From Sulfuriferula nivalis (lineage in GTDB: Bacteria; Pseudomonadota; Gammaproteobacteria; Burkholderiales; Sulfuriferulaceae): DNA of 64,000 nt. Location: contig NZ_AP021881.1 in assembly GCF_009937995.1 (NCBI RefSeq), forward strand, positions 744,001 through 808,000, read 5' to 3'. Shown here piece after piece: positions 54,293 to 57,364 of this stretch. The position numbers and the translations under genes are program-made. Within the stretch, counting starts at the first letter, position 1; the number at the start of each line of letters is the position of its first letter. Under the pieces are notes generated by a model, which saw nothing but the letters and a program-made list of their open reading frames with translations, searched no databases and was not told where the DNA came from.

Positions 54293-54321
54293 ATTATAAC
54301 GAAAATAGCTTATTTTTTCAA
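54293..54321 (-). promoter_or_regulatory. Sigma-70 promoter of rpsO
   Basis: Minus-strand TTGAAA (54316-54321) and TATAAT (54293-54298) with a 17-bp spacer. The -35 box lies inside the last codons of xseA. Transcription would begin near 54286, leaving a leader of about 67 nt before rpsO, long enough for the S15 autoregulatory structure known in other bacteria. Confidence 0.75.
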
Positions 54322-55662
54322 ACGATTAGTTGTATATAAACGACGTACCTGCGTATCAACACTATCTTTTGCAAAATGGATGCTGAGTTTGGCGTTGATG
54401 TCCAGTTGCGCAGTGTTGTGAACGATATCGCCTTGTTCATCGCTGACAATGGCATAGCCGCGTGTGAGCACAGCATTCGGACTTAGATGGTTTAATTCGT
54501 TACGCAAATGCTGCAAAGTAGATAAGCGCTGGCTTAATAAATGCTGCATCGTTAATTGCATACGGTTTCGATATTGCGTGAGCTGGCTGCGACGCGTTTC
54601 CATGTTCGGTCGTTTTAATCGGACTTTAAGTTGTGCCTGCTGCCAGATACGCTGTTGTAAATTGGCCTGCTGAGCAAGCCGCAGGCGGTTGGCGAATTGT
54701 TGCAATGTGATGCGCTGTGTTTGTATACGTTTACCTGGATGAACCAGACGGGCAGTCAGGTGTTGCAATTTTTGTTGTCGCTGTGCAATTTGTGATCGCA
54801 ATTGACGACTTAGGCGTGCCTGTATCAAATCTAATGACTGTAAAAGTTGGTCACGATTGGGGCACGCCAGACTAGCAGCCGCAGTCGGTGTTGGCGCGCG
54901 CAAGTCGCTGACAAAGTCCGTAATGGTGAAATCAGTTTCATGCCCTACGCCACTGATTATGGGGATAGGGCTGGCAGTTACGGTACGCGCCACTTGCTCA
55001 TCATTGAATGCCCATAAATCTTCTATGCTGCCACCACCTCGGCAAATAATCAGCACATCACACTCTGCACGCTGGTAGGCAAAATTAAGCGCATTAATAA
55101 TTTGTGCAGGGGCTGTCGTACCTTGCACTTGGCACGGGTAAAGTATGACGGGCAAGCTGGGCATGAGCCGGTTAAGCGTAGTCAGTACGTCACGTAGCGC
55201 AGCTGCTTGCGGTGAAGTGATGATGCCGATTTGGCGTGGCATGGCAGGGATGGCGCGTTTGCGTGCGCTATCAAACAAACCTTCCAGTTCCAGTTTGCGC
55301 TTGAGTCGTTCAAAGGCCTCAAACAGTGCCCCGAGTCCGGCTCGGCGCAGATTTTCCACTTGTAATTGAAACTCACCGCGTGGCTCGTATAGCCCGGCAG
55401 TGGCGCGAACTTCAACCTGCATGCCGTTCTCGGGCTGCCAGTCAATAAATTGGTTACGTCCGCGGAACATCACACAGCGCACCTGTGCTTGCGCATCTTT
55501 CAACGAAAAATACCAATGACCGGATGCTGCACGAGTGAGGTTGGATATTTCACCCGCGACCCATGTGAGCGGTATCGTGCTGATAAGCGTCTGTTGTATC
55601 CAGCGGTTAAAGCTGGTTACAGTCAGGATAGATGCTGGCTGGTTTAACGGAGAATTTGTCAA
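54310..55662 (-). CDS. xseA: Exodeoxyribonuclease VII large subunit
   Basis: 450 residues, the usual size. N-terminal OB-fold (TSFNRWIQQTLISTIPLTWVAGEISNL-type start, here beginning near residue 16) with WYFSLKDAQAQVRCVMF, then the catalytic domain with IGIITSPQAAALRDVL, CRGGGSIEDLWAFNDE and PIISGVGHETDFTI, and a C-terminal helical region for XseB binding. The xseB gene is not adjacent. The ATG lies at the edge of the AT-rich DnaA-box region, which must hold its promoter. Confidence 0.96.
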   Translation of the reverse strand: MTNSPLNQPASILTVTSFNRWIQQTLISTIPLTWVAGEISNLTRAASGHWYFSLKDAQAQVRCVMFRGRNQFIDWQPENGMQVEVRATAGLYEPRGEFQLQVENLRRAGLGALFEAFERLKRKLELEGLFDSARKRAIPAMPRQIGIITSPQAAALRDVLTTLNRLMPSLPVILYPCQVQGTTAPAQIINALNFAYQRAECDVLIICRGGGSIEDLWAFNDEQVARTVTASPIPIISGVGHETDFTITDFVSDLRAPTPTAAASLACPNRDQLLQSLDLIQARLSRQLRSQIAQRQQKLQHLTARLVHPGKRIQTQRITLQQFANRLRLAQQANLQQRIWQQAQLKVRLKRPNMETRRSQLTQYRNRMQLTMQHLLSQRLSTLQHLRNELNHLSPNAVLTRGYAIVSDEQGDIVHNTAQLDINAKLSIHFAKDSVDTQVRRLYTTNRLKK

Positions 55663-55826
55663 GGATTTTCCACAGTGGTTACAAAACGAAACAAATTTAA
55701 AGTAAATAGCTTGACGTGGTCTAATTTTATTATCAATTTGATTATAAAGGATAAATTATAATGTCAAAATTTAGGCAATAGATAAAATTCCTTATGCGCG
55801 GGTCACTTAGCTACTTGATAAACATA

Positions 55827-55862
55827 TTACCCACAAAGTTATCCACAGAAATTGTGGGTAAT
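55827..55862. repeat. Repeat unit copy 1: three DnaA-like boxes
   Basis: Contains TTACCCACA, then AAG, then TTATCCACA, then GAAAT, then an inverted TTACCCACA. The 36-bp unit recurs at 56103-56138 with only a few changes; the core CACAAAGTTATCCACAGAAA is identical in both. Confidence 0.8.
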
Positions 55863-56102
55863 CTAAAAAAAGCCTTGTGTGTGATAGAGTTAGCGTATAA
55901 ATCTATAAGCCAGTCTAATTTCATGATTTGCTTATATTGAATTCTCCACACGAAAAATAAAAGTTTCTAAAATCGCAAGAATTTACTTGACGTCGAGTAA
56001 AAAATATAACTACATGATTTTAAATGATATTTAATATGTCTAAAAAATGACCCGCAGGTAAAAAACCTTACCAGCAGGTAACTTAGCACTCAGACTAACA
56101 CG

Positions 56103-56138
56103 CTATCCACAAAGTTATCCACAGAAACTGTGGGTAAG
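56103..56138. repeat. Repeat unit copy 2: three DnaA-like boxes
   Basis: Second copy of the unit at 55827-55862, with CTATCCACA in place of the first TTACCCACA and GAAAC instead of GAAAT between the inner boxes. The two copies lie 276 bp apart in the same orientation. Confidence 0.8.
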
Positions 56139-56158
56139 CACAAGCTTATTTCGTTATC

Positions 56159-57364
56159 TTAGTTTGCTACGGCCGATGGTATGACCTTGTTCGCAGCCAG
56201 TTTTGCCCGTTGTCTGGCTGTGTCGGTATCGTCCGCACAAGCCAGTGCAACCCCCATGCGCCGACGCACAAACGCTGTAGGTTTGCCAAATAACCGTATC
56301 TGGCTGCGGGGCACGCTGAGCGCATCGGCTACACCATTAAAGACGATACCATCAGCGTCCATACCCCCATAAATCACGGCGGAAGCTCCCGGTTCACGTA
56401 AGCGGGTATCAACAGGCAAGCCTAAAATCGCACGTGCATGCAGTTCAAATTCACTTTGATACTGGCTGCACATGGTGACCATGCCGGTGTCATGCGGGCG
56501 GGGTGAAACTTCTGAAAACCATACCATATCGCCTTTTACAAACAGTTCCACACCAAAAATACCGCGCCCACCCAAGTTTTCAGTGACGCGATGAGCGATG
56601 TCTTGCGCGCTTTTCAGTGCAGCTTCTGACATGGCTTGTGGCTGCCAGGATTCAACGTAGTCGCCTTGTACCTGAATATGACCTATAGGGTCGCAAAAGT
56701 GCGTTTCAACTTGACCTGATGTACCCAAAGCCCGCACAGTAAGCAAAGTGATTTCATAATCAAAATCGATTACACCTTCAACGATAATGCGTCCCTGTTT
56801 TACACGCCCTCCACTCGCAGCATATTCCCATGCAGGTAATACGTCAGTCGCCGATTTAATCATCGACTGGCCTTTGCCTGAAGACGACATGACCGGCTTG
56901 ATGATGCATGGATAGCCGATTTGTTCATCTATCGCAGCTTGTAGTTCTTCCAGACTATCAGCAAACCGATAAGGTGATGTTGCCAGTCCGAGTGTTTCTG
57001 CGGCTAATCGGCGTATGCCTTCTCGGTTCATGGTGAGCTGGGTAGCACGTGCGGTAGGGATCACCTGGCTGATACCGGCTTGCTCGATGGCTAATAATTC
57101 ATCAGTCGCAATGGCTTCAATTTCAGGCACAATAAAATGCGGGCGTTCGGCTTCAACCAAGGCACGTAGTTGGGCTGCGTCGGTCATGTCGATTACATGC
57201 GCACGGTGCGCAATCTGATGTCCGGGTGCATGGGCATAACGGTCAACGGCAATGACTTCTATCCCTAAACGTTGTAATTCAATAATGACTTCCTTGCCTA
57301 ATTCACCGCTGCCTAGCAGCATGACACGCGTGGCAGAGGGTGATAATGGTGTACCTAATTGCAT
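56159..57364 (-). CDS. purT: Formate-dependent phosphoribosylglycinamide formyltransferase
   Basis: Folate-independent third step of purine synthesis: formate, ATP and GAR give formyl-GAR. 401 residues of the ATP-grasp superfamily. N-terminal [19 protein letters not shown] and [12 protein letters not shown], the ATP-grasp core with [15 protein letters not shown], and [14 protein letters not shown] near the metal site; the C-terminal domain has [11 protein letters not shown]. Purine genes are not neighbours. It is followed by the DnaA-box region and starts 10 bp after the Sel1-repeat gene. Confidence 0.96.

Follow-up and report, generated by a model that had tools for sequence, protein, structure and literature searches.

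The DnaA-reactivating loci DARS1 and DARS2, whose function, the conversion of ADP-DnaA to ATP-DnaA, is known from E. coli, share the spacing of their DnaA boxes, with box I opposite in direction to boxes II and III (PMC5742627). The head-to-head arrangement of boxes I and II is characteristic of DARSs and functionally essential (PMC10380432). In E. coli, DARS2 activity requires sites for IHF and Fis and declines when the IHF site is displaced by 5 or 10 bp (PMC4245941). Another E. coli locus, datA, also has DnaA boxes and an IHF site outside oriC (PMC5742627); its reported action is the opposite one, ATP hydrolysis. As to the spread of these elements, the DARS2 core has been presented as confined to relatives of E. 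coli among the gamma-proteobacteria (PMC4245941), E. coli-proximal beta- or gamma-proteobacteria have been mentioned in the same context (PMC5742627), and DARS1- and DARS2-like sequences have been described as conserved in many proteobacterial species (PMC10380432). Their occurrence outside the enterics is hence not new as such. We found nothing specific in the literature on DARS in betaproteobacteria and, in a search that did not cover the two founding DARS papers, no published report of locations at xseA, priA or hemE, of a tandem pair or of the order core-Fis-IHF.

Here we describe a locus in a Sulfuriferula-like betaproteobacterium that, judged from its sequence and by analogy with E. coli, is likely to be a tandem pair of DARS-type elements converting ADP-DnaA to ATP-DnaA. 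The window, a stretch of 64,000 nucleotides, corresponds to C1:744001-808000 of a 3.36-Mb contig, and the locus lies mid-arm at 800 kb. When a DnaA box is defined as a match to TTATCCACA with at most one mismatch on either strand, eight boxes are found between 55666 and 56137, in agreement with the count of about eight in 496 bp given in a preliminary description; the two perfect boxes reported there are the exact copies of TTATCCACA at 55839 and 56115, both on the plus strand. Such a density had been held to be unexpected, and dinucleotide shuffles of 55663-56158 indeed average 0.157 boxes, with a maximum of 3 in 2000 shuffles. Eight is also the top count for any 500 bp in the 881 kb sampled from this genome, the runner-up having 4. 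The tract had been described as gene free and placed between two metabolic genes, and the genes that flank 55663-56158, xseA and purT, were both confirmed with NCBIfam models. What had been missed is that six of the eight boxes belong to two copies of an ordered 35-bp module, 276 bp apart, each of which consists of a box, 3 bp, a box, 5 bp and an inverted box (9-3-9-5-9). The features are listed here in order of position; the IHF-like and Fis-like sites are predictions.

54310..55662, minus strand: xseA, exodeoxyribonuclease VII large subunit, flanking gene (TIGR00237, 483.5 bits)
55666..55674, plus strand: additional DnaA box TTTTCCACA, 161 bp upstream of core 1, an offset that recurs in several genus relatives
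55731..55743, plus strand: IHF-like site of unit 1, TATCAATTTGATT, 96 bp upstream of the core, one mismatch to YAANNNNTTGATW
55762..55776, plus strand: Fis-like site of unit 1, TGTCAAAATTTAGGC, 65 bp upstream of the core, one mismatch to GNNYANNNNNTRNNC
55780..55861, plus strand: copy 1 of an 82-bp direct repeat found by repeat search, ending with core 1
55827..55861, plus strand: DARS-type core of unit 1, with order and spacing as in the E. coli DARS1 and DARS2 cores
55827-55835, plus strand: box III of unit 1, TTACCCACA, at most one mismatch to TTATCCACA, followed by aag
55839-55847, plus strand: box II of unit 1, TTATCCACA, exact, followed by gaaat
55853-55861, minus strand: box I of unit 1, inverted, TTACCCACA, at most one mismatch to TTATCCACA
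55942..55950, plus strand: additional DnaA box TTCTCCACA, 161 bp upstream of core 2, at most one mismatch to TTATCCACA
56007..56019, plus strand: IHF-like site of unit 2, TAACTACATGATT, 96 bp upstream of the core, one mismatch to YAANNNNTTGATW
56038..56052, plus strand: Fis-like site of unit 2, GTCTAAAAAATGACC, 65 bp upstream of the core, exact match to GNNYANNNNNTRNNC
56056..56137, plus strand: copy 2 of the 82-bp direct repeat, ending with core 2, 76% identical to copy 1 and 276 bp away from it
56103..56137, plus strand: DARS-type core of unit 2, with order and spacing as in the E. coli DARS1 and DARS2 cores
56103-56111, plus strand: box III of unit 2, CTATCCACA, at most one mismatch to TTATCCACA, followed by aag
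56115-56123, plus strand: box II of unit 2, TTATCCACA, exact, followed by gaaac
56129-56137, minus strand: box I of unit 2, inverted, at most one mismatch to TTATCCACA
56159..57364, minus strand: purT, phosphoribosylglycinamide formyltransferase 2, flanking gene (TIGR01142, 591.2 bits)

Each module closes one copy of the 82-bp direct repeat, and boxes I and III of the window (TTACCCACA, CTATCCACA) are each one base off TTWTNCACA. An inverted-repeat element was also considered and was dropped, as 55600-56200 holds no inverted repeat pair. The genome has 72 exact boxes, and only three pairs of them are less than 500 bp apart: beside dnaA, at the window locus and at C1:3253686-3253708. A third core of this genome, a single one, is located on the other arm at C1:3253686-3253720 (L260:8686-8720), downstream of hemE and at a distance of about 108 kb from dnaA; its IHF motif, at -97, and its Fis motif, at -65, each have one mismatch.

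A scan for the three-box geometry gave one match each in the E. coli DARS1 and DARS2 intergenic regions. The DARS1 core reads TAATACACA-tgg-TTATCCACA-ggaat-AGTGGATAA and the DARS2 core TTCTTCACA-act-CTATCCACA-gaaaa-GGTGAATAA, and the order and spacing of the boxes, with box I head-to-head to boxes II and III, are identical in both to those of the window units. The geometry was not found in the E. coli datA region, in E. coli oriC, in the oriC region of the organism itself or in 800 kb of background. With DARS1 (bioD-uvrB intergenic region) the window units also share TTATCCACA as box II; unlike them, DARS1 lacks an IHF match upstream of its core. With DARS2 (rppH-mutH intergenic region) they share predicted IHF and Fis sites on the box III side, at fixed positions relative to the core (-96 and -65 in both units), and a non-coding setting away from oriC, here 0.8 Mb from dnaA. 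However, the order in the window is core-Fis(-65)-IHF(-96), whereas DARS2 has its IHF match at -87 and its exact Fis match at -125, that is, core-IHF-Fis (IBS1-2 and then FBS2-3). The window locus further differs from DARS2 in its genomic place, its stronger boxes and its two tandem copies. On account of the core-Fis-IHF order, we file it as DARS-type and not as DARS2.

It had been suggested that the cluster be looked for in relatives, and there the core proved to be conserved across the genus, while the xseA locus, with purT or an exbB-like gene, recurs within the order. Conservation was scored with a loose pattern of the core geometry that fixes 17 bases and tolerates one mismatch, the reversed pattern serving as a control. 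All 18 genus genomes have this pattern, without a control hit, as do 311 of 370 class genomes, with one control hit, and most class genomes carry one to four cores. When the spacers were shifted from 3+5 to 4+6 bp, class matches fell to 5 of 370. A draw from the phylum gave matches in 167 of 299 genomes, with four reversed-control hits overall; our own tally assigns 97 of these genomes to the class (114 in the draw), 38 to family f206 (39 in the draw) and 32 to the remaining 146 genomes. The tandem pair, at 275-276 bp, is seen in five genus genomes (G000, G012, G013, G014 and G017), and several others have a single unit. The nearest named relative of XseA, 78% identical, is from Sulfuriferula (Sulfuricellaceae), and its record also has a pair 276 bp apart. 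Family f206 lies outside the class; its genomes carry up to nine cores each, and most other outside families have none.

The positions of the IHF and Fis motifs were examined in 162 non-redundant contexts anchored on the core alone, with YAANNNNTTGATW at up to one mismatch taken as the IHF motif and exact GNNYANNNNNTRNNC as the Fis motif. An IHF motif lies 94-99 bp upstream of the core in 107 of the 162 contexts, compared with 0-8 in control windows of equal width, and is missing at the expected offset in about a third of them. This offset is occupied in 22 of 26 contexts at xseA, 51 of 70 at priA, hemE or rpmE and 34 of 66 at other loci. The exact Fis consensus gives 59 hits at offsets 65-67 and at most two at any other offset.

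Genes for DnaA, Hda, IHF alpha and IHF beta are present in the genome (NCBIfam models, with DnaA and both IHF subunits above the cut-offs), as is one for a Fis candidate, a 92-amino-acid HTH_8 protein whose C-terminal 40 amino acids best match Fis models. The trans-acting factors of the DARS2 subtype (IHF, Fis and DnaA) are hence all represented. DiaA is a stimulator of DARS assembly in vitro; the single SIS protein of this genome scores 317.7 bits, above the cut-off, as a phosphoheptose isomerase, and 216.8 bits with the DiaA model, whose cut-off is 352.

From the E. coli elements, we infer that DnaA, IHF and Fis bind at the window locus, that ADP is released there and that initiation is affected. 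On boxes II and I, which are head-to-head and 5 bp apart, two ADP-DnaA molecules would meet via their AAA+ domains, in a complex stabilized by box III at its distance of 3 bp from box II. This complex would be activated through DNA bending by IHF and Fis, bound at distances of about 96 and 65 bp, respectively. Release of ADP would follow, and the apo-DnaA would leave and take up ATP, such that ATP-DnaA would rise ahead of the next initiation at the oriC beside dnaA. The tandem duplication may double the dose or add redundancy. Several observations weigh against the DARS-type reading: the one-base deviations of boxes I and III, the difference from DARS2 in the order of the Fis and IHF motifs, a genomic position unlike that of either DARS1 or DARS2, the score of the SIS protein below the DiaA cut-off, the third of contexts with no IHF motif at the usual offset, and the constant orientation of cores relative to priA, rpmE and exbB-like genes, which would equally fit a transcriptional role.

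The preliminary description had noted that the cluster is not beside dnaA, which is correct, as dnaA is at C1:684, about 0.8 Mb away, and had proposed a displaced origin, a second initiator site or a DnaA sink. What stands of this is a predicted conserved DnaA-binding locus away from dnaA. DnaA boxes in a gene-free tract with AT-rich flanks are reminiscent of oriC and would fit a true or second chromosomal origin displaced from dnaA; we nonetheless give this reading almost no credence and reject a displaced origin on the basis of skew and dnaA position. The cumulative GC-skew minimum, which was to be sought at the cluster, falls instead in the dnaA region. Sampled in 40 stretches of 20 kb and in the window, the skew is positive from 0 to about 1.7 Mb, including both sides of 0.8 Mb, and mostly negative beyond, and its cumulative maximum is near 1.7 Mb. 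A 40-kb interval around the contig junction has its cumulative minimum 500 bp from the junction. Positive-skew stretches at 3.23-3.32 Mb make the sampled global minimum broad (3.15-3.36 Mb), yet it is far from 0.8 Mb. Moreover, two exact boxes (positions 149 and 184) lie immediately upstream of dnaA, the window has three-box cores with an opposed pair and not the same-direction arrays of oriC, and a related copy is present elsewhere in the same chromosome. In two genomes of the same genus, G001 and G012, the contig begins with dnaA as well, and the homologous site is at 1.08 of 3.45 Mb and 1.05 of 2.88 Mb, respectively. Very probably, 55663-56158 is not a replication origin but a doubled switch of the kind that recharges DnaA in E. 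coli. The sink retains some plausibility, although we think it unlikely. As a datA-like site or a plain sink, the boxes would bind excess DnaA or, together with IHF, promote DnaA-ATP hydrolysis, leaving less free ATP-DnaA, and this would accord with the highest box density of the sampled genome, with the IHF-like sites and with titration reported on the E. coli chromosome (PMC12371093). However, a sink has no need for a fixed 3+5 bp spacing, yet one-base spacer shifts abolish nearly all matches, and one to four cores in most genomes would amount to few titration sites. Identity with datA is considered improbable, since the searched E. coli datA region is without the three-box geometry. The strict box order and spacing shared with DARS1 and DARS2, in combination with the positioned IHF and Fis motifs, thus favor a DnaA-reactivating site over a passive sink.

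The genes next to the cores bear on a further alternative. Within the order, cores occupy two places, one at hemE/priA and one at xseA, together with either purT or an exbB-like gene. Across the class, a position upstream of priA or rpmE is common; among these neighbors, XseA, PurT and HemE apart, names were given by reading the sequence and not with a family library. Others are found beside proS, thrB, recG, lon, aceE, rapA and more. No dnaA is present within the fetched flanks of any core. Core orientation is constant relative to priA, rpmE and exbB-like genes, and cores 5' of priA, xseA or exbB-like genes are often within 50-180 bp of them. The constant orientation beside priA leaves room for a transcriptional role, in which DnaA, IHF and Fis would control transcription of the neighbor (xseA here, priA or rpmE elsewhere) and so tie repair and restart genes to the DnaA cycle. 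We regard this as very unlikely, since an equal architecture is found beside the unrelated proS, thrB, recG, lon and aceE, the third core of this genome is downstream of hemE, and the window cores, 165 and 441 bp upstream of xseA, point away from it. The diversity of neighbors argues against a promoter of a single gene, and a promoter of xseA as the sole role was rejected for this reason.

If the DARS-type reading is extended beyond this genome, it is quite possible, and we propose it tentatively, that an ancestral class of DARS with the order core-Fis-IHF governs the DnaA cycle throughout the beta- and gamma-proteobacteria, as well as in one additional family of the phylum. Such elements would be located preferentially beside priA, xseA/exbB or hemE and would have been tandem-duplicated in the Sulfuriferula-like lineage to raise the dose, E. 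coli DARS1 and DARS2 being derived or relocated. DARS function is known from E. coli, and the strict architecture in 311 of 370 class genomes offers a handle for searches: with the core and the IHF and Fis motifs at fixed distances, candidate DnaA-reactivation loci can be found in most beta- and gamma-proteobacteria. This raises the question of whether the ADP/ATP-DnaA switch is a general cell cycle control or an enteric speciality.

Several other arrangements of the core were seen. Strict cores occur in two records labeled alphaproteobacterial (L203 and L206, a Paracoccus MAG and a Paracaedibacteraceae MAG), for which binning contamination is possible. In Collimonas records and in G024, two cores lie about 455-465 bp apart (L163, 2436 and 2892; L168, 5952 and 6406; L060, 1044 and 1509), which appears to be a separate tandem arrangement; the Collimonas pair sits between hemE and priA. 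Cores on opposite strands can also overlap with a 12-bp offset, so that an inverted box is common to the two, as at L257:4242 and 4254, G604:C1:229670-229706 and G223:C62:64822-64858. Finally, genome G626 has an unusually long array at C1:249540-250477, with six cores in about 0.9 kb on one strand, three of which match the pattern exactly and three with one mismatch.
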